Source: Desulfocicer vacuolatum DSM 3385 (GTDB taxonomy: Bacteria; Desulfobacterota; Desulfobacteria; Desulfobacterales; Desulfobacteraceae). Taken from it: DNA of 64,000 nt. The translations under genes and the position numbers were made by a program. The stretch lies in NCBI RefSeq assembly GCF_900176365.1, contig NZ_FWXY01000005.1, forward strand, positions 186,001 through 250,000, read 5' to 3'. Below are positions 6,503-56,961 of this stretch, piece after piece; the stretch's first letter is position 1; the number at the start of each line of letters is the position of its first letter. The notes beneath the pieces were generated by a model. The model ran no database searches. It had not been told where the DNA came from and saw only the letters and a program-made list of their open reading frames with translations.

Positions 6503-7993
6503 TTATTTTTTTGCTTCTCGTTCTTTTTCTTCCTGGATATCAGCTTCCACGTTTTCAACAATGGAGCGCATCTGGGAGCGAACTTCATCGGAAAGCGGTG
6601 TGGGCTTATGATTTTTCAGGATATCCCGGGCTTTGTCCAGGGCACGTTCATGCATGGTCTGGCCGCCTGCGGCTTTCCATTTATCCCGGACCCTGCGGTC
6701 GATGAGTTTGGGCTGGGACATGGTTCTCATGTTCTGAAAGGTGTGCTTTTCAGTGATGAACTGATTAAAGGGTCCTACCTTTGAAATCAGATCCACTGCA
6801 AGTGTGTCCTCGCTGACGGGGATACCGTTCACAACATGCTTGATCATCTCAGCAAATTCATTGTCCATGACCAGCTGGCCATAGTCAAAAGTGACCCCTG
6901 ATTCCAACATACCCAGGCCATAAATCAGATTGGCACCTGCCAACGCTGTGAGGAGACCTGTTAATGTTTTCTCATGGGCTGCCTGTCCATCGGGTACTTT
7001 GGAGTCAGCCTAACCACCGGCGACCCATGAGGGAAGCAGATAATAGGTGGACAGCGCTGCCACACCGGCATTGATCATGGCGCATTCAGGGGAACCCACC
7101 GTTGCCGTGGCCATTCTCAAGTCCAGGGGACAGGTGGAACTGCCGAACATCATGGGAGTGCCTTTTCGTACGGACTGTCCAAGAACAATACCGGAAAGCA
7201 CTTCAGCATTGTGAATAACCAGGGTACCTGCCAGGGTCACCGGGGCAGAACCGCCAGCCAGGGCCTGGGTCAGTACATTGACCAACACACCGGCCCTTGC
7301 GCCTGCAATGATAATCTCGGTGCAGTCACGGACCAATTTAAGGGGGCTGATGGGACAGGTGTTAAATGAAATTATGGGACGTTCCCGAAGTTTATCATGT
7401 CCGCCTGAAATGGCGGCGGCCAGATCAATGGCCCCCTGCATGAGTTTTCCGTTACCGGCACCGTGGAAGCAATGTTTGGTGGTGTTGCTCAAAAAGGCTT
7501 CGGCATTGTGCAGGGGCTGGGCATCCTGGTTTACATCATGGGCACCCACGGCACGCTCGTATACGTCAATGCCGTCCAGGTAATCCACCAGGACTGCACT
7601 TTCTTCAACGTCTTTTTTAACGGTTTCCCTGAGTTCTCCTGAATTAATATCAACAATGGAAATACCTTCTCCAAAGTTGGTGAAACCCACCCGATTGTTA
7701 CCCAGCAGATAATCTTTTTCCGGATCTCTTCCGCAAAGATTCACTGTGCCCGGGGCGGAACGGATGGCATCTTCCACCATATATGGGGGAAATTTTACAA
7801 TGTCGGTCTTGGGGTCCACAATGGCACCGGCACCGGCAAGGATTTCCCTTGCCTCTTCGTCTTCAAAGTAGACGCCGGTGTGCTGGAGCACATCCAGGGT
7901 GGCCAAATGAATCTCATAGAGTTCATCCTGGCTGAACATGTTCAGGCTCAAACCTCCGGTCTGGAGATAGCCTGCATGCTGATTTCGTTTCAA
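6503..7993 (-). CDS. mttB: trimethylamine methyltransferase with in-frame UAG (pyrrolysine)
   Basis: Two abutting minus-strand frames are one gene interrupted by TAG at 7010-7012. Around the codon the protein reads PSWVAGG-[UAG]-ADSKVPDGQAAHEK, which matches canonical archaeal MttB, where UAG encodes pyrrolysine. The frame continues through ALAGANLIYGLGMLESG and GIPVSEDTLAVD and ends with TAA, giving about 496 residues, the normal MttB length. MttB transfers a methyl group from trimethylamine to a corrinoid protein. The likely start is TTG at 7993, seven bases after GGAGG; TTG at 7999 is too close to that site. No corrinoid protein gene is adjacent, and no pylTSBCD genes are in the window. 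The adjacent BCCT gene suggests a quaternary amine supply. An alternative is a true nonsense mutation, but conservation on both sides argues against decay. Confidence 0.93.
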
Positions 7994-8174
7994 AATCAAA
8001 CCTCCTTGATTTTAAAGGTGTTTTAACGTTTAACCGAGAAGTGTCTTCTTTGAATTCATGATTCAAAAAAGACATGGCTATTTACTGATTTTAAAAAAAT
8101 TTAAAACAGCGTGGCAGATTGCCATTTTTTTTCATTGAAAATTGCATACGGAATGGATAGATCTGCAATTTTTT

Positions 8175-9605
8175 CTAACTTTTTTGTGCTTCGATATAAC
8201 GTTCAAGATCTTGATCAATATCATCGGAAATCATTTTATCCGGACATTGGCTCAAAATTTCCTTATAGGTTTCATTGGCCCGTGTTACCACGTCCTTTTC
8301 ACCTTTTTTCTCCCATTGTTCATAGCTGTCACATGTGGAAACAGAGGGGGTCCAGAAATTTCTACACTGTTTCATGGTGTCTGGCTGCATGAGGTATGAT
8401 CCCCCGTGACCCACATCCTGAATGGCTTTTCTGGAATAATCGGCATCAAAATTTTGAATCCCGCCAACGGCCAGGGCGGCCCTTGCCATTATTTCGTCAT
8501 CAATGATGAATTTCTCATAGGAAACCGTCATGATGGCATCTAAAATACCATAACACTCATTAACCATGTTCACCCCGGCCATGGCCAGCATGAGATAGTT
8601 CTGCATGGTTTCGTAACCGGCCTGGCAATCCACGTCCTTGGCATCGGTGAGCCCTGCCATGCACCGCGAAGGAATATCATAAAGCTCCCGGGCCAGCTGG
8701 ATACCCACCATATTTATAAGAGTGGATTCAGGAGAGCCTGTGATGTAAGAAGCGCTGCGCATATTGGGAATGGCCGAAGCCGGAGAATAGATAAAAGGTG
8801 TTCCCGGATTGATGAGCTGGGACAATACAAGTCCTGCCAGAATTTCAGCATTTTGAAGGGTCACAGTCCCCATGGGATTCACAGGAGAGGTAACACCGGC
8901 CATGGCGCACACCAATATCATGATGGGCTGGCCGTGTTTGGCATAGGCAAGAAGGGTCTCGCAGGGAATTTCATCATACTTCAGGGGACTCAGGGGATTA
9001 AGGGAAACACCGATGCGTTTTTTCTCCAGCACATCATCCCCGCCCCCCATGGATATTTTGATCATATCAAACATCTGCCCCACCTCTTTCTGGGTGCCCA
9101 CATAACCAAAAAGCGGTTTGTCCGTGTGGGTGAGCAGCTGACGAAAAATATCCAGATATCTCAGCGGATGGGTCACATCACTTGGTTCCACGGGAATCTG
9201 ACCGTTGATGTTACACACCTTGCTGTGCTGGGCAAGTTTGTAAAGATTAATCAGGTCAGCTTTGGTGCCAAGTCGCCTGCCTTTTTCCTGGTCCTGGATG
9301 TAAATGGGGCCGTTGTTCAGACTGACATGGATGCCCTTCTGGCCTTTTCCCACAATGATATTTTTTTCGGGATTACGCCCTTCCCACTGAAAACTGTTGG
9401 GTGCAGAGGCAATGGCCTTTTCCACCATCTCCGGGGGAATAAATACAATATCGCCCTGGACCCTGGCACCATGTCTCTTGAAAATTTCAAGACATTCCGA
9501 CGATTGAAACACAATGCCGGTGTGGGAGAGAATATCCAGAGTGGCTTCATGGATATTTTCCAAGGTATTTTTATCAACAACTCTGAAGCTGGATGCAATG
9601 CTCAT
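8175..9605 (-). CDS. non-pyrrolysine MttB-family methyltransferase (MtgB-like)
   Basis: A 476-residue COG5598/MttB-superfamily protein. It shares the fold signatures of its neighbour (HEATLDILSHTGIVF, NAEILAGLVLSQLINPGTPF, ITGSPESTL). At the pyrrolysine position it reads RCMAGLTDAKDVDCQAGYET with no UAG. Members lacking pyrrolysine include glycine betaine:corrinoid methyltransferases (MtgB) and enzymes for other quaternary amines, so demethylation of glycine betaine or a relative is the best guess. It lies 181 bases upstream of mttB on the same strand, with no gene between. The stop codon is TAG, unusual to note beside a pyrrolysine gene; readthrough would add about 27 residues. The start is ATG at 9605. 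Substrate remains unproven. Confidence 0.85.
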   Translation of the reverse strand: MSIASSFRVVDKNTLENIHEATLDILSHTGIVFQSSECLEIFKRHGARVQGDIVFIPPEMVEKAIASAPNSFQWEGRNPEKNIIVGKGQKGIHVSLNNGPIYIQDQEKGRRLGTKADLINLYKLAQHSKVCNINGQIPVEPSDVTHPLRYLDIFRQLLTHTDKPLFGYVGTQKEVGQMFDMIKISMGGGDDVLEKKRIGVSLNPLSPLKYDEIPCETLLAYAKHGQPIMILVCAMAGVTSPVNPMGTVTLQNAEILAGLVLSQLINPGTPFIYSPASAIPNMRSASYITGSPESTLINMVGIQLARELYDIPSRCMAGLTDAKDVDCQAGYETMQNYLMLAMAGVNMVNECYGILDAIMTVSYEKFIIDDEIMARAALAVGGIQNFDADYSRKAIQDVGHGGSYLMQPDTMKQCRNFWTPSVSTCDSYEQWEKKGEKDVVTRANETYKEILSQCPDKMISDDIDQDLERYIEAQKS

Positions 9606-10100
9606 GATTTTGATTCCTGTTATTCCTCTGGGTAAAATCTATTTCCCAAGGGCCGTTTTAATTTTAACGGGCCATGAAGTTGCCCGCGTTGTCACAGGAA
9701 TATCCTTTTTCAAGTTGCATGCCAGTGGAAAACATTGGTGGGAGAAGAAAGATCAGACAGGTCGTTTCATTGCAGTTTTTACATATAACAAAAAACCGGA
9801 ACAATCATTGCTTACAGCTAAGGTGGTGCTAAATATCTAAATATATTAGATATATATCTTTACCATCCTGTTATATTTTTTTTATTCTAAGGGGTGCAAA
9901 GAAATATAAGGGGTAATATTATTTTTAACAAAAAGGCAAAAGGAGTGAAATCGTAAAACAAGTGTCTGGAGAAAAGATGCAACGGGTTACACTGGTGTAA
10001 TGAAAAACGGTGTAACCCTTTACACACGAACATCGTGATTTTAATAATGCAGTCCGCCCGTTTTTGATTCGGTCCTGCCTGTAAAAAATTATTGAAAAGG
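9606..10100. other. gene-free stretch with two inverted repeats upstream of the mttB-like gene
   Basis: GGGTTACAC at 9984-9992 and GTGTAACCC at 10009-10017 form a perfect 9-bp inverted repeat with a 16-base spacer. A second, AT-rich dyad ATATCT...AGATAT lies near 9834-9856. Neither has a terminator-like T-run. Their place about 230-410 bases upstream of the mttB-like start would suit activator sites. I found no -24/-12 sequence in the correct direction and no coding frame. Confidence 0.4.
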
Positions 10101-12011: not shown

Positions 12012-14219
12012 TCATCGGGCTATGGGAAGATCAATGCTTACTTTTGTCCACTCTCCTTCCACGCTTTCAATATTAAGCTCTCCCCGGTGTTCTTCAATGA
12101 TGCCGTAACTGATGCTCAGACCAAGTCCTGTGCCGTGGCCCGGCGGTTTGGTGGAAAAAAAGGGATTACACAGTTTGTCCATGATTTTTTCAGGAATCCC
12201 AATGCCCCGATCCATGAAAACGGTACGCACCATCTGTTGATCATTGTTTGTCACGCTTTCACAGGAAATAATCAACTCTTTACGGGCATGGGAACCGGAG
12301 AATTTCTGATTTAAGGCATATCTTGCATTGCCAATGATATTTAAAAAAATCTGCTGCACCTGGTGGGTGACGGCATGGCACAAAGGTACCCCGCCCCCAG
12401 CCTCCCAGATAACCTTAATGTTGTCTTTTTTTACCATGGCCTGGGTCAGATCCAGAACATCATCAATGATTTCAGAAATGTTAACCGCTTCTTTTTCTTC
12501 ATTTCCTTCCCGGGCAAAGGAGAGTAATTTGCTGACAATATTGGCAATGCGCATGCTTTCGGCAATAATTCTCTGGGGCAGTTCAACATCTTCCTGGCCG
12601 CTTCCCCGGGTGTCTTCTATGATCTGGGCATAATTAATAATGCCGTTGATGGGGTTGTTGATCTCATGGGCCACGCCGGCGGCAAGTTCTCCCAGGGCTG
12701 CCAATTGGGCATTACGAAGAACTTCCTCACGCATTCTTTTCTTTTCTGCAAGGTTTCGACATACCAGAACCACCCGCCGGGGTGTGCCTTCCCTGGCCCA
12801 TAAAACCACATTACTGGTGCACCAAAAATCCATTATTTTACCGTTCACCGGTATTTTAAGCTCACTATCACTTTCAATACCCGTGGCAAAACAATTTTTT
12901 ACAATGCATGACCCCGGGGGAGGATTGTTGGGATAAAGCAGATCAACATATTTTTTTTCACCTGCCCCGGATCCAAACAGCTCTTTTCCCTTATCATTGA
13001 TCCACAGAATATCGCCATTTTCATGGATCATCATCATGGCATCGGCCACGGAATTGATGATACCGTTTATTTTTTCTTCACTGTTTTCCAATGCTGTCCG
13101 GGCGTTGTCCAAGGCCTCCACTCTGTTTTTTATATTGGCAAAAGAAGCTTTCAAGGCCCGGGCCATGGAGTTAAACTGCCGGGACAAAACCTCTATCTCA
13201 TCTCCGGTTTTTCGCACAGGTATTTCCGTAAAATCTCCCTGGGCAATGCGGTCTGCCCCCTGGGTGAGAACCCGTATGGGATTGAGATGCTTTTTGATAA
13301 AGAAAAAAACCAGGCCTGCGGAAACAATGCCGCCACACCATAGCACCGCTGTGAACAGGCGGATGTAAAAAAGAATGAGTTTTTCCACCTCTGTCCAGTT
13401 TCCCTGGGTGATCACCCCCCACCTTGTGCCGGGAACCGGTGCAAATCCGGAAATAAGCTTAATTCCAGATTCATCAAGGGAAAATGTGGCTCCGGTTTTA
13501 CCTTGAATCACCTTTTGTACTGCTTCCTGATCCATTAAACTTTGACCGAGAAGGGAGCTGTGACGATGGTAAAGCACATGGCCGTCACCGTCCACCAGAT
13601 AGCCGAAACTGCTTTTTCCTGATTTAAACTCCAGAACCTTGGTATAGGTGGTGCCAAGGGTGGAAAATTCCACAGAACAAATGCCTGCCACCACCCCCTG
13701 GAACCGGGACCGGTCATCAATAACAGGCACACCGATGAGGATGGCGTCCCTTCCAAGGGGGGCATGAAAAAAAATATCGGAAAACACAGGTCTGAGGTTA
13801 TTTTTAAGGGATTTAAAGTGGGAAGGAGAAGGGAAAAAATGCCCTTTTTTCTGAAAACCCAGGGGATAAGACCATACCACCCGGCCTTTTTTATTAAAAA
13901 TCACAATACCGCCGTCAAAAAAATGAATTCGACTTCTGGCCTGCACCAATAACGGTTCCATGTGGGTAAAAGACATCTCTTTACAGGCCTTGGTGTCTGC
14001 AATGGTCTGAAGAAAATAGCTGTATTTTTGAAGATTTTCCGACAGACGGACAGCGGCAATTTCAGCAAAGGCGGCATCACGACGTTTCACCACATCAAGG
14101 GCGCTGTTCTTAATGGTAAGATGGGACATGACAGGAACAATACTCACCACAAACAAAAATGGAATCAAGGCCCAAAAAATAATTTTAATGGAAATACGTT
14201 TAAAGTTCATTTGTTTCAT
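12012..14219 (-). CDS. membrane sensor histidine kinase (Cache-HAMP-PAS-HisKA-HATPase)
   Basis: A 735-residue kinase. A first membrane segment (IIFWALIPFLFVVSIVPVMS) is followed by a periplasmic region of about 250 residues resembling a double Cache domain, then a second membrane helix, HAMP, PAS, HisKA with the phospho-histidine in GVAHEINNPING, and a HATPase with FLNIIGNARYAL and GTGLGLSISYGI. The ATG at 14219 overlaps the upstream stop codon by one base (TGATG), showing translational coupling to the solute-binding protein gene. It should phosphorylate the regulator encoded next. The Cache domain, the partner binding protein, or both could sense the ligand. Confidence 0.92.
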   Translation of the reverse strand: MKQMNFKRISIKIIFWALIPFLFVVSIVPVMSHLTIKNSALDVVKRRDAAFAEIAAVRLSENLQKYSYFLQTIADTKACKEMSFTHMEPLLVQARSRIHFFDGGIVIFNKKGRVVWSYPLGFQKKGHFFPSPSHFKSLKNNLRPVFSDIFFHAPLGRDAILIGVPVIDDRSRFQGVVAGICSVEFSTLGTTYTKVLEFKSGKSSFGYLVDGDGHVLYHRHSSLLGQSLMDQEAVQKVIQGKTGATFSLDESGIKLISGFAPVPGTRWGVITQGNWTEVEKLILFYIRLFTAVLWCGGIVSAGLVFFFIKKHLNPIRVLTQGADRIAQGDFTEIPVRKTGDEIEVLSRQFNSMARALKASFANIKNRVEALDNARTALENSEEKINGIINSVADAMMMIHENGDILWINDKGKELFGSGAGEKKYVDLLYPNNPPPGSCIVKNCFATGIESDSELKIPVNGKIMDFWCTSNVVLWAREGTPRRVVLVCRNLAEKKRMREEVLRNAQLAALGELAAGVAHEINNPINGIINYAQIIEDTRGSGQEDVELPQRIIAESMRIANIVSKLLSFAREGNEEKEAVNISEIIDDVLDLTQAMVKKDNIKVIWEAGGGVPLCHAVTHQVQQIFLNIIGNARYALNQKFSGSHARKELIISCESVTNNDQQMVRTVFMDRGIGIPEKIMDKLCNPFFSTKPPGHGTGLGLSISYGIIEEHRGELNIESVEGEWTKVSIDLPIAR

Positions 14220-47224: not shown

Positions 47225-49402
47225 TCAATATAGCGTGCCTTCCAGGGTGAACCCGGAAATGCCAAGCTTTTTACCACAATACTGCGCATCAAAGGGGTAG
47301 ACCCGGAACTCAATGGCATTGTCAATGGCAGTATATCCCTCCCGGGGCAGATTAAAAGAGAGCACCACATCTTTAACCGACCAGAAGTCATAATAATCTG
47401 AAACAAAAATCTCGTCACCGTTTTTAAATCCGTCAACACTGGAAAAAACAGCATATTGATGTCCCCCATGGTTATCCATCCGACGAATGGTCAAGGTCAC
47501 AGCGGCCCCGCCAAGATCCATGGTCCACCCCACTGCCGGTTCCAGTGAGACAGCAGCATATTGATTTTCTTTAACGGCGGTGCTCAGGGATGTCAGCTTC
47601 TTTTTATTGCAAAGGGAAAACACCATGGCATCATCATCCCCAAGGGGCGTTACCCCACTTCCCAGGGTCCATCCATGATAAATAATATTGGGATACAGTT
47701 CATCGGTAAGATCCCATGGAGTGTTCAAGGCTGGAGACACCCCCGTAAGCCTGGAGGTGACCAAGGTGGGAGGTCCCACCACAGGTTCCGGTTCTTCCGG
47801 TGGTGGTGGATTTTCATCAATCCAGGTATTGAGAATTTGAAATTTAGGGGATGTGTCACTTGCCTGAAACAAATGTTCAAAAACACCCCAGCTACCCCAT
47901 TTATTGTAGGCACCAATATAGGAAAAATTATTAAAATGGCTTACCCCCTTTGTTTGAAGCAAGGTAAGATACTGGGTATACAATGCCCCCATTTCCAAAG
48001 ATCGGTTGGCTGCAAGCAGTTTGCCCGTTAATATGTCGTTGTTTTCATTGCCCAGGGTTCCCACCAGATGCTGGCCGCCCTCATAACATATCAACTCCAG
48101 ATTATGAGCCATGGCCAAGGCTTTTTGGGCCGTTATTTCATCAGGCAGGGTAAGCTCAATGTCTTCCTGTGCCCGGGATAAAATGTCCGTGACAGAAATA
48201 GAATCCACCTCCTGTCTGTCCACAATATCATCTGCCACATCCCCTCCAAAATAAGGTGCCATGGCCAGAGCGTCAGGCTGTATACCATCCGGGTTAAGCT
48301 GAGGATCAGAAAAAATGTCAAGCCGCATTTCAGAAATGCCGCTGTTCGCCGACTGGGTGGCCAAAACCTTCACAATCCTTGTGTGCATATCTGCACCAAA
48401 AACCTCTTGAAAAAGACGCCATATTTCAGCAGAGCGCACCCCTGCGTATTTTTGTCCAGCTTTCCAGCGGTCCCCATCCAACCCCAAAGCAACGCCTTTA
48501 TCTTGAACCCAGAGGGTCTGGGAGAACGAAGAACTGCAATTCCAGGTTTCATTGGAATATTCCACATAAATTTTAATATCAGGACCCACCGTGTTTTTTA
48601 ACAATTGGGCACATTGGGAAATATAATTATCATCTGCCTGATGGGGGATACATATCCACAGATCTTTTTCCAGATCATTGGCCAGCATGACCATGTATTC
48701 CAAAGCCACCCCATTGTTTCCGGCCTGGGTATAATCACCGGGTTGGGTGCGATCATTCCATGTTACCACCGGTGATGCATTGGTGCGTCCCCAGTCCATG
48801 AACCTGAGCACTGAAAAATTTGTCAGCCGTGTTTTATATTCTGGATGAAAGGGATTTGATTCATCAGATATATAGCCCGGGGTCATGATTTTAAAATTTC
48901 TTAGATAATCGCTGCTGTCTGTGGATAAAATTTCCAGCCATATGGTGCCGGTCTGCTCCTCGTCCATGGTCACATCAAATGAAAATGTTTTGATTCCCTG
49001 GGTGTCCGATTCAATGATGTTCAATGCTCCGCCCGACCCTTTGATTGTAAAGTTCCCCATGCCTTCATAGGTCAGGGTGTAGGTGCCACCTTTCACCACG
49101 GTGACCAGGGTATGAACCGTCTGGGGAAAATCTGAAGTTGCGGGTACAAAGGGTACCTGGGTGGGCCATCCATTTGCATCCCTGGGGATATCATCGTAAA
49201 ATTTTGTATTCCAGGAGCCTGAATCATCGGCATTTTGTGTGCACCAGGGTCTTGCTTTTTTAAAAACATCCAGGAAGACATGGTCAAAGGACCAGTCTGA
49301 AACGGAATTAAGATTCATTCCAATATCCATGGAAAACGCAGATAAAGGTAAAAATAATACCAAAGTCATCGCCAAGACGAATCTTTGTATCTTTTTTATC
49401 AT
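47225..49402 (-). CDS. large secreted protein, possible glycoside-hydrolase-like
   Basis: A 725-residue exported protein with a signal peptide (FVLAMTLVLFLPLSAFS). The mature start MDIGMNLNSVSDWSFDHVFL and WICIPHQADDNYISQCAQLL, then YVEYSNETWNCS, resemble a family of putative carbohydrate-active proteins with a TIM-barrel core; conserved aromatic residues and the acidic EYSNE fit a possible catalytic region. A proline-rich linker (NPPPPEEPEPVVGPP) near residue 540 precedes a C-terminal beta-rich domain. ATG at 49402 has GAGGTG upstream. It stands alone, with no secretion or sugar-uptake genes next to it. Substrate unknown; polysaccharide binding is a guess. Confidence 0.65.
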   Translation of the reverse strand: MIKKIQRFVLAMTLVLFLPLSAFSMDIGMNLNSVSDWSFDHVFLDVFKKARPWCTQNADDSGSWNTKFYDDIPRDANGWPTQVPFVPATSDFPQTVHTLVTVVKGGTYTLTYEGMGNFTIKGSGGALNIIESDTQGIKTFSFDVTMDEEQTGTIWLEILSTDSSDYLRNFKIMTPGYISDESNPFHPEYKTRLTNFSVLRFMDWGRTNASPVVTWNDRTQPGDYTQAGNNGVALEYMVMLANDLEKDLWICIPHQADDNYISQCAQLLKNTVGPDIKIYVEYSNETWNCSSSFSQTLWVQDKGVALGLDGDRWKAGQKYAGVRSAEIWRLFQEVFGADMHTRIVKVLATQSANSGISEMRLDIFSDPQLNPDGIQPDALAMAPYFGGDVADDIVDRQEVDSISVTDILSRAQEDIELTLPDEITAQKALAMAHNLELICYEGGQHLVGTLGNENNDILTGKLLAANRSLEMGALYTQYLTLLQTKGVSHFNNFSYIGAYNKWGSWGVFEHLFQASDTSPKFQILNTWIDENPPPPEEPEPVVGPPTLVTSRLTGVSPALNTPWDLTDELYPNIIYHGWTLGSGVTPLGDDDAMVFSLCNKKKLTSLSTAVKENQYAAVSLEPAVGWTMDLGGAAVTLTIRRMDNHGGHQYAVFSSVDGFKNGDEIFVSDYYDFWSVKDVVLSFNLPREGYTAIDNAIEFRVYPFDAQYCGKKLGISGFTLEGTLY

Positions 49403-49478
49403 GACCACCTCACTGATATGATTGAAATTTGTTCTGAATCATAGCAGGAGATCTCTCAAAAGACCACAACTATTTCAA

Positions 49479-50375
49479 TCAAAACAAACTTTTAAATATA
49501 TCAAACTGCTCCTTTGAGATGCCTGCCACTCCGGCAGGTCGCTGCACTTCATCGTGACAGTCAGAACCTCCGGTGACCACAAGGTTGTATTTTTCAGCCC
49601 ATCCCCTTAACAAGGTTCGGTGCTCCAAGGTATGGCCCGGATAGCTGACTTCAATGCCATGGAGCCCCACATCCAGAAACCGGGGAAAGAGCCTTTCCAC
49701 GGTCTCCACCGGGGGAAGCACCTCTCTGTAGTGCCCTTTGCCGGGGAAAGACCCTGCAGCAGGATGGGCCAATACTGTTACCACAGGAAATGCTGATGTA
49801 AATGATTTCACCAGGGCAATATCAATGCCCGATGGCAGGTAGGCCGGACTATTGTTGCCAATGACATGGTTAATCTGATCCCGGTCTGTGATGCCATGTT
49901 TTTCTGCCAGGGCCAGGGCAAAATGGCGCCGGGACACCGAAGGCGCATACGCTGCAATTTCATCATGGGTCATGGGCCTTGACAACACGGCCTCGTCTCC
50001 CTCCGGGCCGAATATACGATTTATTTCCGCCACCCTGGCCCGGATCAGGGCTTCCCCCCTGCCCTTTCCAAGGGTTGTTTTCAAGGTATCTATAAATTCA
50101 TGATTTTTAAGTAAATCCGGTGAAAAATAACATAACAGGTGCAAGGTTCCGGTGAAAAAAGACTCCTTAAACCGCACAGACACCTCCACCCCGGGCACCA
50201 CCTCAATGCCCAGACGGGTCCCCTGTTCCAGGGCCGTTTCCAGCCCCCCCACGGTATCATGATCCGTTACCCCCACAGCAGAAACACCCAGGCGTGCCAT
50301 GATGGAAATGAGCGTTTCCGGGGTATAATCGCCATCGGATGCTGTGGTGTGATTATGCAAATCTGCGTAAAACAT
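49479..50375 (-). CDS. PHP-domain phosphoesterase
   Basis: A 298-residue metal-dependent phosphoesterase. The PHP metal motifs are DLHNHTTASDGDYTPE and GVTDHDTVGG near the N-terminus, VPGVEVS, and TVLAHPAAG plus GGSDCHDEV toward the end. Members of this stand-alone type hydrolyse nucleoside 3',5'-bisphosphates or trim short nucleic acids. Start ATG at 50375. There is no obvious operon partner. Confidence 0.85.
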   Translation of the reverse strand: MFYADLHNHTTASDGDYTPETLISIMARLGVSAVGVTDHDTVGGLETALEQGTRLGIEVVPGVEVSVRFKESFFTGTLHLLCYFSPDLLKNHEFIDTLKTTLGKGRGEALIRARVAEINRIFGPEGDEAVLSRPMTHDEIAAYAPSVSRRHFALALAEKHGITDRDQINHVIGNNSPAYLPSGIDIALVKSFTSAFPVVTVLAHPAAGSFPGKGHYREVLPPVETVERLFPRFLDVGLHGIEVSYPGHTLEHRTLLRGWAEKYNLVVTGGSDCHDEVQRPAGVAGISKEQFDIFKSLF

Positions 50376-50426: not shown

Positions 50427-50532
50427 TTAGGCAGTCAGCAGTTTTCAATTTACCGTTTATATAAGATGCTACCCATAAAATATGGCGGTCTGAATTTTGT
50501 AAATGGTAAATCAATAAGATCTGACTCCCTTA
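50427..50532 (-). repeat. repeat family D, copy 1
   Basis: It ends AGATCTGACTCCCTTA and contains TTTACCGTTTATATAAG and TTTGTAAATGGTAAATCAAT. Read on the other strand it matches copy 2 at 54566-54672 over almost the full length with few differences. It finishes five bases before the stop codon of the response regulator. Confidence 0.85.
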
Positions 50533-50536
50533 TTTA

Positions 50537-51301
50537 TCAATCATCATCCAGATGGAAATCAGGATAAAGCTTTCTGGCACAATCAGGACAGATACTGTGG
50601 CTGAACTGGGCCTCGGAATATTTCTGGATATAGGCCTCAAATCGACGCCAGCATCCATCATCATCCCGGATTTTTTTACAATTTGAGCATATGGGAATAA
50701 TCCCCCGGAGCATTTTTATTTCATCCAGGGCCTGTTGCAGGGACGCTGTCCTCTGGGCCACTTCCTGCTCCAGTTTTTTTTGATAATGCTCCCTGGTATT
50801 CATTGCCTCGTAGGTTCGCAACCCCACCATCATGGCTGTGAATAATTTCTCTGAGGTTAATTCAGTTTTACTTTTATAGTCATCAATTTCATACTCCCGA
50901 ATCACCTCTTGTTCCGGTGCAACCCCCGGCTGACCGGTTCTCAACACAATACGGATGGATTCGTTTTTAAGCTCATTTCGAACATAATCCACAAGGTTCA
51001 GCCCTGCCGTGTCACTCTCCATAACCACATCAACCAGCATCAGGGCAATATCGGGATGATCCTTTAAAATCTCTCTGGCCGATTTGTCTGAATGGGCCTC
51101 CAGAATAATGAGATTTTTCCCCTGGAATGAAAATCCCTGTAAGGCCAACCGGGTCACCGCATGGACATCCTCGTCATCATCAACCACAAGAATTTTCCAT
51201 TGTTTCTCACTGTTTTGAAAAATATTCCGGCCATCTTCATCATTGAATTCCTGTACAAAAAGATCGTCAAATTCATCGCTATCGTTCATTTGAGTACCCA
51301 T
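50537..51301 (-). CDS. response regulator with coiled coil and CxxC zinc-ribbon-like tail
   Basis: A 254-residue protein. The receiver domain spans about residues 35-160 (ILVVDDDEDVHAVTRL, acceptor Asp in LMLVDVVMESD). A coiled coil follows (EHYQKKLEQEVAQRTASLQQ), then a motif found at the end of many deltaproteobacterial signalling proteins: LRGIIPICSNCKKIRDDDG and HSICPDCARKLYP, two CxxC pairs. There is no DNA-binding domain. The ATG directly follows the kinase stop codon and has GGAG nine bases upstream, so it is the cognate partner of the kinase. Confidence 0.88.
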   Translation of the reverse strand: MGTQMNDSDEFDDLFVQEFNDEDGRNIFQNSEKQWKILVVDDDEDVHAVTRLALQGFSFQGKNLIILEAHSDKSAREILKDHPDIALMLVDVVMESDTAGLNLVDYVRNELKNESIRIVLRTGQPGVAPEQEVIREYEIDDYKSKTELTSEKLFTAMMVGLRTYEAMNTREHYQKKLEQEVAQRTASLQQALDEIKMLRGIIPICSNCKKIRDDDGCWRRFEAYIQKYSEAQFSHSICPDCARKLYPDFHLDDD

Positions 51302-52549
51302 TTAAATTGCTCCTTCACGGGGAAGGACGATTTTAAAATTCACACCATGTCCCGGGCTGCTCTCACAGGAAATGGTTCCCTTGAGTTTCTGGGTGACAAT
51401 ATTATAAACGATGTGCATTCCCAACCCTGTGCCATCTTCTTTATTGGTTGTGAAAAAAGGATCAAATATCCGTTGTTTGTTTTCCGTTGTCATGCCGTTT
51501 CCATCATCACTGTATTGAATCACCAGCTCTTCTTTTTGTTTTGCAGCAAAAAGCATTATCTTTCCACCCTCTTTTTCTTTATACCCATGGGTAAAAGAAT
51601 TAACCAGTAAATTTGTCAAAATCTGGGAATAAAGTCCCGGGTAGCTTGTCACTTCAATGGCGCTTTGAAAGGCAAGACAGATCTGAACATTTCTTCTTCC
51701 AAATTTAGGTTTCAGACTTCTGATAACATCCCTGAAATAAGGTTCCAGGCTGAACTTTCGCAATTGGTCTGTCATTTGATCCACGGACACCTGTTTAAAA
51801 CCGCTAACCAACTCCCCTGCCCGTTTCAAATTTTTTAAAACAAGCGCCCCTGTATCATCTGTGAATTGAATAAAGCTCTCAAGGTCAGAGCGTTTCATTT
51901 TCTTTTCACTGAATAATTTTCCAAGATTGTTGTTTTTATCCACCATGGAGGAGACTGCGGTGACACACACCCACACAGGCGTGTTGATTTCGTGGGCCAC
52001 ACCTGCCACAAGGGTTCCCAGAGCTGCCATTTTTTCGGATTCCACCAGTTGAGCCTGGGTTTTCTTAAGTTTTTTCAGAGTCAGGGCAAGACGTTTCTTC
52101 TGTTCTATAATCTTTTCATATCTTCTGGCATTTTCAATGACAAGACCACATACATCGGCAATGGAAAGGGCCAGATTAAAATAACTTTCCCGGTATTGTA
52201 CAAAGGCAAGGTCATCCACCTCCACTATGCCCATGGGCTCACCATTGTATTGCATTGTAAATACAAACCCGGTTTCTGAATCTGTCCGGTAATGAAGAGC
52301 TTTGGAGCCCAGTAACCGCGCCTCCACCCCGCGACGGGATTCTGTGTGAAGGGGAAGATAAACAGTATTTTTGTGAATTCCCCGGCCAAGGCAAAGAAAA
52401 GCGATTTTCCCCGGTGAAAACAGCATGACAAACAGATCAATAATGCCGTCAACGGCCTCTTTTTCACTGGTACAACCGGTCATTTTACCCAGCAGATCCA
52501 GGGCCATGGCATATTCTGATATCTGTTTGTCAAGATCTTTTTTTTCCAT
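51302..52549 (-). CDS. soluble sensor histidine kinase
   Basis: A 415-residue kinase without membrane helices. Residues 1-140 look like a GAF-type sensing domain. A coiled coil leads to HisKA with the phospho-histidine in GVAHEINTPVW and a HATPase (LTNLLVNSFTHGY, GTGLGMHIVYNI). It is preceded, in transcript order, by a corrinoid protein and a UroD-type methyltransferase gene, so it may sense a methyl-corrinoid or a related metabolite. A MITE lies between it and the methyltransferase gene. Confidence 0.9.
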   Translation of the reverse strand: MEKKDLDKQISEYAMALDLLGKMTGCTSEKEAVDGIIDLFVMLFSPGKIAFLCLGRGIHKNTVYLPLHTESRRGVEARLLGSKALHYRTDSETGFVFTMQYNGEPMGIVEVDDLAFVQYRESYFNLALSIADVCGLVIENARRYEKIIEQKKRLALTLKKLKKTQAQLVESEKMAALGTLVAGVAHEINTPVWVCVTAVSSMVDKNNNLGKLFSEKKMKRSDLESFIQFTDDTGALVLKNLKRAGELVSGFKQVSVDQMTDQLRKFSLEPYFRDVIRSLKPKFGRRNVQICLAFQSAIEVTSYPGLYSQILTNLLVNSFTHGYKEKEGGKIMLFAAKQKEELVIQYSDDGNGMTTENKQRIFDPFFTTNKEDGTGLGMHIVYNIVTQKLKGTISCESSPGHGVNFKIVLPREGAI

Positions 52550-52579
52550 ATTTCACCAAATTATCGGCATTTATCTTAA

Positions 52580-52744
52580 ACTCAACTTTCGGTGTTCGCA
52601 TTGGTGGGGTCAGGCTTTCGTTATTGACATTATCGAGGCTTTTTTCGTTGGCAAAGGCCTTGGTCGATAACATCAATAACAAAAGCCTGACCCCATCGGT
52701 ACATTTAAAAATGCTGGCTTTGAAATGAAGCCCGAAAGTTGAGT
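52580..52744. mobile_element. MITE, repeat family C copy 2, with terminal inverted repeats and target duplication
   Basis: A 165-bp element with ends ACTCAACTTTCGG and CCGAAAGTTGAGT. CTTAA flanks it on both sides (52575-52579 and 52745-52749), as expected for a 5-bp target duplication. The interior is the long GGGGTCAGGC...GCCTGACCCC hairpin shared with copy 1. It has no coding capacity, so an unseen transposase would have moved it. Confidence 0.9.
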
Positions 52745-52797
52745 CTTAAACATGTGTTGGGACATGATATGGTTAAAGCACAGCCCATGGCCACACC

Positions 52798-53850
52798 TCA
52801 TGAAGAGATCCAGTCCAGGGGATATTGTCCCCATTGGCGCACTGCCCGGGATATGGCCAGAAGCACTTCATCCGGAACCTGAAAGGGAATCTCTCCATGG
52901 TTATCTGACAGCAGAAAACCACCCCCCGGACCTGCGGCGGCAATGGCTTTTTTTACTTCTTCTTCTGCCTGTTCCGGTGTCCAGCCACACATGCCAATGC
53001 CATTGAGATCCCCCAGCACCGTTAATTTTCCCCTGCACGCCGCCTTTACCCGGCCAAGATCCTCCAGAGAACTGCTCCCCATGATGTCTGTGCCGGTTTT
53101 GACAAGATCATCCACAATGGATAGTCCCCGTCCCGATGCCAAGTGGGTGGCTGTGGGGCCGTTGATTTGCGCAATGGTATTTTTTGCCACCTTGAATCCT
53201 GTCTTTAAATAAAGTTCCCGGGGAATGATGGTGGGGGACGACACCGGATCAAAATAACAGATGGCTGTGCTGCCGGCGTCCAGCTGGGCATTGGCCCAGT
53301 TCACACAAAAGCGGGTATTGACCTCCATCAATCGCCGGAACAAGAGGGGAGATTCATAGATCAGTTCAATGTATTTGTTAAAACCAAGCTGCATCACCGG
53401 CAAAGAAAAAGGAGACATCACCACCCCTATAATAGGTACTTGATCCTGGACATGCTCTTTTAAAAGCCGGGCAGAGGTCAACACTTTTTCAAGGCAGGTA
53501 CATGCATCAATGAGAGGTGGCTCAAGGGAATCAATTTCTTTAATATCTTTTATAAAAGGTGTGCCGGAATTTGGAGGGCCGTCTTCACAATAAACAACCT
53601 CGCCCCCCCAGGCTTCCACTTCCAGGGGGGCATGATAAAAATTATAAATGCAGTCATGCCCATATTTTTCAAGGAGCTTGAGCTGACCCTGCACCACATG
53701 TTCTCCCCGGGAAAAATAGTCCTTTATGGACAATCCCAGCTCTTTGGCACCGTGCATGGTTAAAAATAAAAACAGGGGAACACGGTCCGGTTCATTATGT
53801 CCCAATGTTGTCAAAACCCGTTCAAGTGAAGTCATATGATCAGTTTCCAT
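52798..53850 (-). CDS. UroD-family methyltransferase (MtbA/MtaA-like)
   Basis: A 350-residue protein of the uroporphyrinogen decarboxylase/methylcobamide methyltransferase family: TSLERVLTTLGHNEPDRVPL at the start, ICYFDPVSSP in the middle, TVLGDLNGIGMCGWTPEQAE and FLLSDNHGEIPFQVPDEVL near the end. In MtaA/MtbA a zinc-binding HxC motif is expected; here the matching place reads THLASGRG with Ala for Cys, so the acceptor may not be CoM or another thiol. The ATG at 53850 has GGAGGT upstream and overlaps the corrinoid gene by 11 bases, so the two are coupled. The pair should move a methyl group from a corrinoid. Confidence 0.85.
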   Translation of the reverse strand: METDHMTSLERVLTTLGHNEPDRVPLFLFLTMHGAKELGLSIKDYFSRGEHVVQGQLKLLEKYGHDCIYNFYHAPLEVEAWGGEVVYCEDGPPNSGTPFIKDIKEIDSLEPPLIDACTCLEKVLTSARLLKEHVQDQVPIIGVVMSPFSLPVMQLGFNKYIELIYESPLLFRRLMEVNTRFCVNWANAQLDAGSTAICYFDPVSSPTIIPRELYLKTGFKVAKNTIAQINGPTATHLASGRGLSIVDDLVKTGTDIMGSSSLEDLGRVKAACRGKLTVLGDLNGIGMCGWTPEQAEEEVKKAIAAAGPGGGFLLSDNHGEIPFQVPDEVLLAISRAVRQWGQYPLDWISS

Positions 53851-54478
53851 GGGACACCTCCATGATTTTTTCAATAACCGGTACCACACTGGATGCTGTG
53901 GTGCACATGGCATCTGCCCCCACGACCTGGAACAATTGGTCATCAAATTTAAAAGGAGCCCCTCCCACCACAATTTTCACATCAAGCCCCATGTCGTCAA
54001 AAGCTGTGGTGACTTTTCTTATTTTTAAAGCCGAGGGAAGCATGAGCACAGAAATTAAAAGCACTTTTATGCCATCGCTCTTTACCCGTTTCACCACCTC
54101 ATCCACAGAAATATTGCCATAATCAAGAAGCTCAAACCCGGCGGCACGGAGAAGAGAATAGACAATTTGTTTTCCCAGCAGATGGTGATCCTGCAACACG
54201 CAAAGTGCCATGCGGGGCTGATCCTTACGATCAGGCGCCCCCGGCGGCAAAAGGATATTCACCATTTTTTCACAGATTCGTCCCCCCATGTAAACCTGGG
54301 ACAAGGCCACGGAACCGTCTTCCCAGCCCCTGCCGATGTGCTCCAAAGCCGGCACAATGAGCGTTTCAATGATGCTGATGGGGGAAACGTCTTGTGTTAA
54401 TTCATTAACAATGCCTTCAGCCGCCAGACGATCAGCCACCAAAAGGGACTCCACCAGTAATGAAATGTCATGCTTCAT
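53840..54478 (-). CDS. corrinoid (B12)-binding methyl carrier protein
   Basis: A 212-residue protein of the MtaC/MttC type. A helical cap (residues 1-80) precedes a B12-binding Rossmann domain with the cobalt-ligand motif DHHLLG (pattern DxHxxG), SVLMLPS and VVGGAPF. It carries the methyl group between substrate-specific and acceptor methyltransferases. ATG at 54478 has AAAGGTG upstream; the longer start at 54493 has none. It heads the operon with the UroD-type methyltransferase, kinase and regulator. It is the only such carrier in the window, about 46 kb from mttB. Confidence 0.9.
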   Translation of the reverse strand: MKHDISLLVESLLVADRLAAEGIVNELTQDVSPISIIETLIVPALEHIGRGWEDGSVALSQVYMGGRICEKMVNILLPPGAPDRKDQPRMALCVLQDHHLLGKQIVYSLLRAAGFELLDYGNISVDEVVKRVKSDGIKVLLISVLMLPSALKIRKVTTAFDDMGLDVKIVVGGAPFKFDDQLFQVVGADAMCTTASSVVPVIEKIMEVSHGN

Positions 54479-54565
54479 GCACACACCTTTCATACAAAAT
54501 TAAAGATTTAGGCTATTGGCGGATAAAATACAAACAGATCAGTATATTCTTTACCACAAATAGCC

Positions 54566-54672
54566 TTAAGGAGTCAGATCTTATTGATTTACCATTTACA
54601 AAATTTAGACCACCATATTTTATGGGTGGAACATTGAATAAACGGTAAATTAAAAACTGCTAACTCCCTTAA
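54566..54672 (+). repeat. repeat family D, copy 2
   Basis: A 107-bp element running from TTAAGGAGTCAG to TAACTCCCTTAA, so the ends are inverted repeats with extended partial symmetry (TTTACCATTTA / TAAACGGTAAA). It is inverted relative to copy 1 and lies between the corrinoid gene and the Rel gene. Confidence 0.88.
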
Positions 54673-54676
54673 ATCA

Positions 54677-56860
54677 TCAAAAATTAATGCTGTCCCTTCC
54701 ATAGGCCTCGATCACAGGATAAAAATCTCTTTGTTCAAAGCTTTCAAAAAAAGTTTTTGAAGCGTTGAATCCGATGAGAGTCACCAGCATTGTGACCCCC
54801 TTGCCTTCATTGCCCGTCTGTTCAATCTGATGCAATGTAACGCCATGGGGAATGTCTGCCATAACTTTAAGACACTCTCCCACGGTTTTTCCCTTGAGAA
54901 AAAGTTTAAATTTTAAGGCATTGCGCCACACCGACGCCAGATCCCAGTATACATCCAGAATTTTATCCGCAGAATAACTGCTGCTTGCCATGTATTCCCG
55001 GCAATGATCCCGGTGGAAGGAAACCCCCCTTTTACTCAAAGTGGCAACGGTATTCTCAAGCCCGGGAAGGGGCTTACAACATCTGGAAAATTTATGGACA
55101 CCCGGCTCCACCCGGGAAATATTGATAAAATTACGAACCCCTTTCTTTTCCATGACTCTTTTTCCGGTCTGGGAAAGAATAGATGCCATTTCCCATAATA
55201 TTTCACGGGGTTGAACAATGTCTTGTCCCACACTTTCAAAAAGATCGTCCAGGCTGTCAAAATTTTTATAAATTAAAAAATTGGACATGGACGGAGAATA
55301 CAAAAGATTTATGGAAATGCCGTGGCGATTCATCTCCTGCAATAGAAAATCCCATCCAATTTTAATGGCATGGACCCGCCGCCTTTTCTGGAGATATTTG
55401 TTAACGGCATTTCTGGCCTTGGGGGTTTTGCAGATCTGTTCAAATCCCGGCCCCACCCCCAGGACTTTTTGGTCTGTGACAATTTTCACCATATCGCCGT
55501 CGCTGAGCTGATACCCGGGGGACACCCGCAAATTGTTCACCCAGGCATATTTACATCTATCGCCCAGGGAGGTATGAACTTTATAGGCAAAATCCAGCAC
55601 AACACTTCCCTGGGGCAGGTACTCAATGTCTCCCCGGGGGGTATAAACAAAAATTTCCTGCTCCTGGGACAATTGGCCAAAAAGATTTTTACGGCCCGCA
55701 GGTGATCCTTCAAACTCACCGATATTTTTCAGGGCATCACTGATCATCTGGCGATACTCCCGGAACATCTCTTTATCATCCCAATGGAGCAATACCCCCC
55801 GCTGGGCCACCTGATTCATTTCCCGGTTACGAATTTTCACAAGATATTTCCGATCCTTGCAGGAAATTCTCACATGAAGACTCTGATAACCGTTAACCTT
55901 GGGATTGGCAATATAATCCCGGATGCTCTTGGGAACAGGTGGATAAAGTTGATTCACCATGCCCAGCACGCGGTAACATTCCGGTATGACATCTGTATGC
56001 AGTATAATGGTAAAATCCACCATGTTTTCTGCATTTTCCCGTTCAAGGGTCTTTTTGGCCGGAGAATATAGTGACCACAAGGTTTTTAAGCGGGCTTTCA
56101 CCGTCACCGGAAATGGAAGTTCTGCACACACCGCTTCAAAACCCGACTTCATCTCTTTTACTTCCCGGGACTCCATGAGTTTATTGAGCATGCCCATCAA
56201 TCGTTTGCTTTTTTTGGGAAAACGCTGCTGAAGGGAGAGATGATAGAGTCTGCGCTTAAAGGTAAACAAATTTAACTTGGCTGCCAAAGGGGCATACACT
56301 TCCATGGTTTCCTGGGCAATGCGCTGGCGTCGACTCTCCTGCAGTGCACCAAGGGTTTCCATATTATGCATGCGATCGGCCATTTTAATCAAAAGAATTT
56401 CCGGATGCTTACTGGCCATGAGCACCATTTTCTGGTAGGTGAGATCCTTGCTCTGGGATGCCTTCATGCGGCTGAGTTTAAATTTGGTGCACCCGTCCAC
56501 AAAAGCTGCCACATTTTTGCCAAAAAGCCTTTGAATATCATGGAGGTTCAAGCCGGGGACATCCTCCACAATATCATGTAAAATGGCAGCGGCAATGAGT
56601 TCAGGATCGCTCAACCCCAGGTCTCCGGCCAGAATTTCCGCTGCTGCAATGGGATGGGTGATATATTGCTCACCGGATCGTCGGGTCTGGCCGGCATGGT
56701 GTTTATGGGCAAATGCCAGGGCCTTCAGCACCAGGTTTTTTCCTTTTCCCGGGTTTTCCCGGGAACATAAAGCAATCACATTTTTAAAATTATCCAGCGG
56801 TAACTCTTTGGCCAGTTCCTCCACCACATATGGCCTTTTAACCGCTTGATGGTCATTCAT
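54677..56860 (-). CDS. RelA/SpoT-family (p)ppGpp protein
   Basis: A 727-residue protein with the long Rel/Spo layout. The HD hydrolase domain is at about 40-190 (HAGQTRRSGEQYITHPIAAA, LHDIVEDV), the synthetase domain at 230-390 (IRDYIANPKVNGYQSLHVRI), and the TGS domain at about 420-480 (IFVYTPRGDIEYLPQGSVVL). The C-terminus may be a divergent ACT region. The usual arginine in the synthetase strand (YAVRI-type) is not evident here (VDFTIIL), so synthesis may be weak and the protein mainly a hydrolase; this was not tested. ATG at 56860 after AAGGA is preferred over 56896. Confidence 0.88.
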   Translation of the reverse strand: MNDHQAVKRPYVVEELAKELPLDNFKNVIALCSRENPGKGKNLVLKALAFAHKHHAGQTRRSGEQYITHPIAAAEILAGDLGLSDPELIAAAILHDIVEDVPGLNLHDIQRLFGKNVAAFVDGCTKFKLSRMKASQSKDLTYQKMVLMASKHPEILLIKMADRMHNMETLGALQESRRQRIAQETMEVYAPLAAKLNLFTFKRRLYHLSLQQRFPKKSKRLMGMLNKLMESREVKEMKSGFEAVCAELPFPVTVKARLKTLWSLYSPAKKTLERENAENMVDFTIILHTDVIPECYRVLGMVNQLYPPVPKSIRDYIANPKVNGYQSLHVRISCKDRKYLVKIRNREMNQVAQRGVLLHWDDKEMFREYRQMISDALKNIGEFEGSPAGRKNLFGQLSQEQEIFVYTPRGDIEYLPQGSVVLDFAYKVHTSLGDRCKYAWVNNLRVSPGYQLSDGDMVKIVTDQKVLGVGPGFEQICKTPKARNAVNKYLQKRRRVHAIKIGWDFLLQEMNRHGISINLLYSPSMSNFLIYKNFDSLDDLFESVGQDIVQPREILWEMASILSQTGKRVMEKKGVRNFINISRVEPGVHKFSRCCKPLPGLENTVATLSKRGVSFHRDHCREYMASSSYSADKILDVYWDLASVWRNALKFKLFLKGKTVGECLKVMADIPHGVTLHQIEQTGNEGKGVTMLVTLIGFNASKTFFESFEQRDFYPVIEAYGRDSINF

Positions 56861-56961
56861 ATACACTGTTCCTTGCGTTCCGTTTTGCTCACCCATCCCA
56901 ATTCATTCGAACAGGTTTAAAATACCGTTTAATCCACGGTACTGCTATTGTTTATCCTGCC

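Follow-up and report, generated by a model that had tools for sequence, protein, structure and literature searches.

In Desulfocicer vacuolatum DSM 3385, four minus-strand genes encode a corrinoid protein (CP), a methyltransferase (MT), a histidine kinase and a response regulator, and sit between a RelA/SpoT-like gene and a PHP-domain gene. They lie in a 64,000-nucleotide stretch of NZ_FWXY01000005.1 (positions 186,001 to 250,000; hereafter the window), which is part of contig 39 of a 5.04 Mb genome in 80 contigs. The link of the kinase to the methyl-transfer genes is a conserved gene order and not chance. On balance we think it probable that the four genes exemplify a sensory module in which a CP, an MT, an optional DUF1638 domain and a GAF-like domain precede an output. 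From the sequences, the best reading is that the CP and MT would form the front end of a modular sensor. The main features, in window coordinates, are as follows.

53840-54493, minus strand: CP, with a B12-binding_2 cap and a B12-binding domain carrying D102-x-H104-x-x-G107 (PF02607 and PF02310, both above cut-off)
52798-53850, minus strand: MT of the UroD fold (PF01208, E 3e-48; profile match to 4ay7)
51302-52549, minus strand: sensor histidine kinase of 415 amino acids (HATPase_c, E 6e-20; structure model)
52070-52534, minus strand: GAF-like input domain, at about residues 6-160 of the kinase (by profile comparison; common to the third gene of the module elsewhere)
50537-51301, minus strand: response regulator, with a probable receiver, a coiled coil and a C-terminal CxxC...CxxC domain
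50543-50710, minus strand: Zn-finger-like C-terminal domain of the regulator (CSNC...CPDC; by profiles; fused straight to the GAF-like domain in relatives)

The MT ATG overlaps the CP stop by 11 nucleotides (nt) and the regulator start follows the kinase stop directly, while the MT-kinase gap is 248 nt and holds a palindromic repeat of 165 base pairs (bp), called C. The linkage of these genes was followed in two samples. In the first, MT relatives at E 1e-60 were found in 20 of 98 genomes, the own genome included. In all 19 other loci read, the MT is adjoined by a CP (by profile only in L082) and by a gene with the kinase N-terminal domain or DUF1638; the MT itself is broken or partial in L081 and L082. 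For the broad sample, contigs were scanned with the MT alignment and two peptide patterns of the MT; this gave 302 relatives, of which the best 80 were read. The CP adjoins the MT in all 80 (upstream in 78, downstream in one and fused in one), and the gene that follows carries DUF1638, a GAF-like input domain or both in 75. In four of the loci without a sensor gene (L091, L103, L124 and L141) the MT lies no more than 243 nt from the contig end. Thinning at 80% MT identity left 69 clusters, window included, of which 64 keep the sensor with the same five misses, and the median pairwise MT identity was then 64%. The original prediction, made from the letters of the window, had linked the two-component pair to the methyl-transfer genes, and the gene order in relatives bears it out.

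What follows the input domain is variable. The third gene is DUF1638-GAF-HATPase in 16 loci, GAF-Zn-finger-like in 13, DUF1638-GAF-HisKA-HATPase in 10, the latter plus a receiver in 7, and a GGDEF form in 8, and the output switches type 10 or more times along the MT tree. A constant input with a changing output speaks for a sensor. In 32 broad-sample loci the third gene is a complete kinase that has no receiver of its own and is followed by over 500 nt of sequence; a receiver gene is next in 14, and in 9 of the 14 it is of the window's type (114-159 bits). These nine loci (L112, L121, L125, L126, L142, L143, L148, L149 and L162) are from an Anaerolineales bacterium, a Magnetocorallium, a Thiotrichales bacterium, a Rhodocyclaceae bacterium, a deltaproteobacterium, a Thiobacillus, a Rhodoferax, a beta proteobacterium and a gamma proteobacterium, and so the four-gene cassette is a recurring unit. 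A pathway that uses methyl groups needs a second methyltransferase and an activase. No other family was found in more than 3 of the 80 loci within 9 kb, thus no conserved second methyltransferase or corrinoid activase, with neighbours clustered at 60% mutual coverage, at which split or fused relatives could be missed. The absence of such a recurrent neighbour likewise speaks for a sensor.

The domain assignments rest on two kinds of profile: those for the GAF-like and Zn-finger-like domains were built from the loci of this analysis, and those for DUF1638, HATPase, HisKA, receiver, PAS and GGDEF from Pfam-confirmed examples. In example proteins of the relatives Pfam confirms DUF1638, HATPase, HisKA, receiver and GGDEF. 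The GAF-like profile matches one Pfam-recognised GAF at E 4e-4 over 58 columns and another at E 8e-4. In the window kinase HATPase_c is above cut-off and HisKA is weak (E 0.021); the H-box HEINTP is present, and its His is nearly invariant in the alignment. The structure model of the kinase has a predicted local distance difference test (pLDDT) score of 85.8, and its PDB matches are solved histidine kinases, over residues about 168-415. The receiver of the regulator scores 28.3 bits against PF00072, just under the cut-off of 30.2. In many relatives the third gene encodes only about 240 amino acids, the kinase N-terminal domain being fused to the Zn-finger-like domain of the regulator; by this comparison the window appears to carry the two halves of the roughly 240-residue GAF-Zn-finger-like protein, split onto kinase and receiver. 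The Zn-finger-like domain, of the form CxxCK-IRDDxGxW...FSHxICxxCxxxxYP, recurs in Desulfobacterales regulators and GAF-like proteins (window 50543-50710 and L064-L077), and no Pfam model was above cut-off for it in our scans. The DUF1638 alignment has one invariant Cys and two more that are nearly so, and a PDB search with a DUF1638 model gave a best E of 0.011, with none at 0.001 or better.

A second MT subfamily has the same arrangement. Contig 46 of the own genome encodes a CP, an MT, DUF1638 (PF07796, E 9e-25) and a hybrid kinase with a PAS domain, and six relatives found with this MT keep its gene order, the output being a kinase in five and GGDEF in one. CP-MT-DUF1638-GAF-like-output is thus present in 7 of 7 loci of the second subfamily (kinase in 6, GGDEF in 1), with the two MT subfamilies sharing a mean identity of 24%. 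At their N-termini, the products of the fourth genes match the GAF-like domain of the first subfamily (probability 95%, E 3e-8, 146 columns), while the PAS and DUF1638 control profiles gave no match, at E 0.4 or worse. With the same profiles, none of the other CP loci read in the genome (L167 and L169-L173) showed a neighbour with DUF1638, a GAF-like domain or a histidine kinase; PAS-containing genes are near the CP in L171 and L172, and L169 is a short contig in which gene calling did not show the CP itself.

The CP has PF02607, PF02310 and DxHxxG as in the MtaC/MtbC kind; D, H and G of the motif are kept in 78 of 79 aligned CPs, the remaining row being gapped there. Against TIGR02370, the methyltransferase cognate corrinoid protein family, it scores 72.5 bits, below the cut-off of 215.3, and it matches the solved chain 8j2y of a GGDEF protein. 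The MT scores 164.9 bits against the UroD superfamily (PF01208, cut-off 23.9) and 96.2 bits against MtaA/CmuA (TIGR01463), below the cut-off of 235.4; 4ay7, its profile match, is a methylcobalamin:CoM methyltransferase. The HxC motif of MtaA, which we take to be its zinc motif, reads HLA at the corresponding position of the window MT, and across the MTs the column of the motif Cys is Ala in 79 of 81 and Ser in 2. HxA in place of HxC speaks against coenzyme M or another thiol as the acceptor. The MT alignment is highly conserved with many invariant residues, and given this and the kept DxHxxG of the CP both proteins are likely active.

Some loci depart from the common form. In L164, from a Candidatus Brocadia bin, the CP and MT are fused in one 566-residue frame, followed by DUF1638-GAF-PAS-kinase. 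L160 has a second, divergent CP at 13265-13924, directly after the DUF1638-GAF kinase gene. The MT frame of L081 (genome G001, 8906-10008) is split, with one in-frame TAG, which in a pyrrolysine-using group could mark a pseudogene or be a read-through codon.

Under the sensor reading, methyl transfer by the MT would run between a small molecule and the CP cobalt, and DUF1638 and/or the GAF-like domain would read the methylation or redox state of the CP. In the window system this would gate autophosphorylation of the kinase, which would pass its phosphate to the receiver of the regulator, with the Zn-finger-like end as the putative output; in relatives the same front end would act on diguanylate cyclases, on hybrid kinases or, without an intermediate, on the Zn-finger-like domain. 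A domain that handles corrinoid redox placed before a kinase or cyclase is how a reader of the corrinoid state might be expected to look, and the kinase may sense the state of the methyl-transfer system. More tentatively, and somewhat short of an even chance in our judgement, the module could be a new class of receptor, with members in a dozen or more named phyla, whose detector is an enzyme cascade of MT and CP. Such a receptor would consume a methylated or redox-active small molecule and, by way of DUF1638 and the GAF-like domain, pass the resulting corrinoid state to an output that can be exchanged (kinase, cyclase or Zn-finger-like).

Several observations weigh against a sensor. Gene order shows co-function and not direction, and the kinase might do no more than regulate a metabolic MT; an activase and a second methyltransferase could also sit elsewhere in the carrier genomes. 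L100 is a complete locus with CP and MT without a sensor, having a DUF6994 gene instead. In the window, C sits in the gap between MT and kinase, which makes their co-transcription uncertain. Pfam calls no GAF in the window kinase, no PDB match of the kinase model spanned the GAF-like part as a separate domain, and the kinase is without DUF1638, as are the GAF-Zn-finger-like proteins of the relatives. The strongest competitor is a catabolic demethylase with its own regulators, in which the CP and MT strip a substrate of methyl groups for metabolism and the role of the two-component system is confined to controlling their expression. Such a role has been proposed for the mec cassette. According to the available part of PMC9768040, mec has a histidine kinase, a corrinoid protein, MTI, a response regulator and more methyltransferases. 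Several further corrinoid methyltransferase loci exist in the D. vacuolatum genome, and a pyrrolysine-type mttB element lies in the window itself. However, no MTII or activase is a conserved neighbour in the 80 loci, the outputs are often GGDEF or the Zn-finger-like domain and not transcription factors, and the constant part is the sensor domain and not the output; we consider a catabolic role unlikely, though a serious contender.

A variant of the sensor idea, in which the corrinoid itself is the redox or light sensor and the MT only resets or maintains the methylated state, appears improbable. The match of the CP to the GGDEF protein chain 8j2y is in line with it, as are corrinoid domains that act as light sensors fused to diguanylate cyclase (DGC), GAF and other domains (PMC11796333, in the part seen) and the link of DUF1638 to reductive reactivation in the portions of the literature available. 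The high conservation and many invariant residues of the MT suggest substrate recognition and so stand against it.

The original prediction also described repeats, called D, that bracket the cassette, and took the bracket to suggest that the cassette had moved or is expressed as a unit. The features that bear on this are:

54569-54668, plus strand: D2, copy of a miniature inverted-repeat transposable element (MITE), by aligned ends, with TTA flanks
50430-50529, minus strand: D1, MITE copy by aligned ends, with TTA flanks (TAA on the element strand)
52580-52744, no strand assigned: C, palindromic MITE-like repeat between the MT and kinase genes (hairpin z -8.8)
54677-56896: RelA/SpoT-like gene, flanking the cassette
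49479-50375: PHP-domain gene, flanking the cassette

Two nearly identical inverted D repeats do enclose the four same-strand genes: the arms at 50429-50528 and 54570-54669 are 100 nt long and 89% complementary. The predicted 88 bases from D2 to the CP start fall within the range of about 77-88 nt found, which depends on the ATG chosen, but D1 with its flank stops 4 nt before the regulator stop codon, not five. The identity of D1 and D2 is far above chance, yet D is a genome-wide repeat. A genome search at E 0.01 or better gave 42 rows in at least 40 distinct places, a lower bound as 40 of 73 first-look candidates were scored. Alignment of 40 copies places the ends of the element at GGGAGTCAG...CTGACTCCC, and the flanks are TAA/TAA in 18, TTA/TTA in 13 and TTG/TTG in one, the remaining 8 differing or being cut. 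Identical 3-bp flanks in 32 of 40 copies mark separate transpositions with a 3-bp target duplication. With many short copies, terminal inverted repeats and a target duplication, D resembles a MITE, and its TNA-type duplication presumably recalls the IS1031 group of IS5. No open frame of at least 85 codons crosses the element in 34 of the 40 copies.

A composite mobile element with D ends carrying the four genes is accordingly very improbable and largely refuted. The inverted pair and the identical flanks, TTA on the plus strand at all four sites (50427-50429 and 50530-50532 for D1, 54566-54568 and 54669-54671 for D2), would by themselves be compatible with it, as would the nearest rows of the window MT on a weakly supported tree, which come from outside its own group. 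Copy number and copy relationships speak against it. D1 and D2 each have their own 3-bp repeat, the closest copy to D1 is on another contig (96% identity), D2 ranks 10th for D1 (88%) and D1 ranks 9th among the relatives of D2. A Pfam scan of the four cassette genes found no transposase, and no D copy was present in the 105 relative loci searched. D repeats were accordingly rejected as the ends of the cassette, and the bracket does not support the idea that it moved or is expressed as a unit. D is thus common at unrelated places, as would count against the original prediction, but the kinase-methyltransferase linkage is conserved. D pairs within 5 kb number 4 against 1.55 expected from uniform placement (P 0.07) and within 7 kb 6 against 2.17 (P 0.02), a weak excess.

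C has inverted ends ACTCAACTTTCGG around the palindrome GGGGTCAGGC and occurs, whole or in part, at about 40 or more genomic places; at one of them (G000:C32, L020) it adjoins and truncates a D copy. On the best reading, C inside the cassette and the D elements on either side of it are unrelated MITE insertions. A search for an empty site found that the RelA/SpoT-like and PHP genes are not neighbours in the relatives searched (matches in 10 and 56 of 59 genomes, respectively, own included). Around the genes there are 7 promoter-like sites against a shuffled expectation of 7.8, and 8 terminator-like sites against 4.4 expected, none of them within the D copies.

The 80 broad-sample loci come from 13 named phyla, with 3 loci without a phylum (NCBI) and one from an archaeal bin that may be mis-binned. 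Carriers include sulfate reducers, magnetotactic and cable bacteria, methanotrophs and Chloroflexota; one locus (L099) is from the culturable Desulfonema magnum. Within the phylum of the window occurrence is sporadic: an even sample had the MT at E 1e-90 or better in 3 of 297 genomes, a cut-off that favours the first MT subfamily. This sporadic presence, with an MT identity across phyla of at least 54%, suggests horizontal spread, although changes of phylum on an MT tree with many weak forks are no proof of it. The cassette may have moved by a route other than D ends, as the nearest rows of its MT on the weakly supported tree lie outside its own group.

Elsewhere in the window, a 727-residue protein (47225-49408, minus strand) has no Pfam match at E 0.01. 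The pyrrolysine insertion element PYLIS_3 (mttB) is at 6913-7012 on the minus strand with 94 bits against a gathering score of 38, beside an open frame (7010-7999) that is MttB-like by eye; an Rfam scan of the window gave nothing besides PYLIS_3.

No published description of a CP-MT-DUF1638/GAF-like module was found in the open-access literature, as far as the sources were available in part, and the module is perhaps a widespread, undescribed route of chemical sensing. If the CP/MT pair is a detector, methylated compounds or redox state would be measured by catalysis and not by binding, many outputs would be plugged into one front end, and DUF1638 would gain a testable job. With carriers in diverse groups, the question can be put to several organisms.

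Known systems share parts of the arrangement, with mec and the Methanosarcina kinases coming closest. With MtaA/CmuA (TIGR01463) the MT shares the UroD fold and the association with cobamide, but it is below the family cut-off and the motif Cys is replaced by Ala or Ser. B12-based photoreceptors have, to our knowledge, no methyltransferase partner, and in the window the CP is a separate protein. The likeness to CarH and its relatives, in the part of PMC11796333 available, is that a corrinoid domain is the signal input, also when coupled to DGC. DUF1638 (PF07796) also adjoins a corrinoid protein in methionine and betaine corrinoid systems, as far as PMC5764234 and PMC12478193 could be consulted. 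Genetics there showed DUF1638 to be required, with a RamA-like activase, for B12-dependent methionine synthesis; the part of PMC5764234 seen offers no specific proposal for its function, and PMC12478193 later grouped it with the reductive recharging of cobalamin. In those systems it is a separate protein with methionine synthase pieces, whereas in most loci here it is fused or adjacent to sensor outputs. The kinases MsmS and RdmS of Methanosarcina (PMC11784639 and PMC6944256, both in part) similarly have PAS/GAF domains and are tied to corrinoid methyltransferase genes, but they are without an H-box and their downstream regulators without receivers, while the window kinase has HEINTP and a putative receiver partner. 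The mec cassette of dichloromethane degraders (MecA kinase, MecB corrinoid protein, MecC MTI, MecD receiver) is alike in grouping a kinase and a receiver gene, which in the window is a putative one, with a corrinoid protein and methyltransferases in one cluster. In the available part of PMC9768040, however, mec has eight genes, including further methyltransferases and a transporter, a PocR domain in its kinase and no described DUF1638/GAF-like module, whereas in the window the RelA/SpoT-like and PHP genes enclose no more than four genes and, by Pfam scans, the kinase has no PocR.

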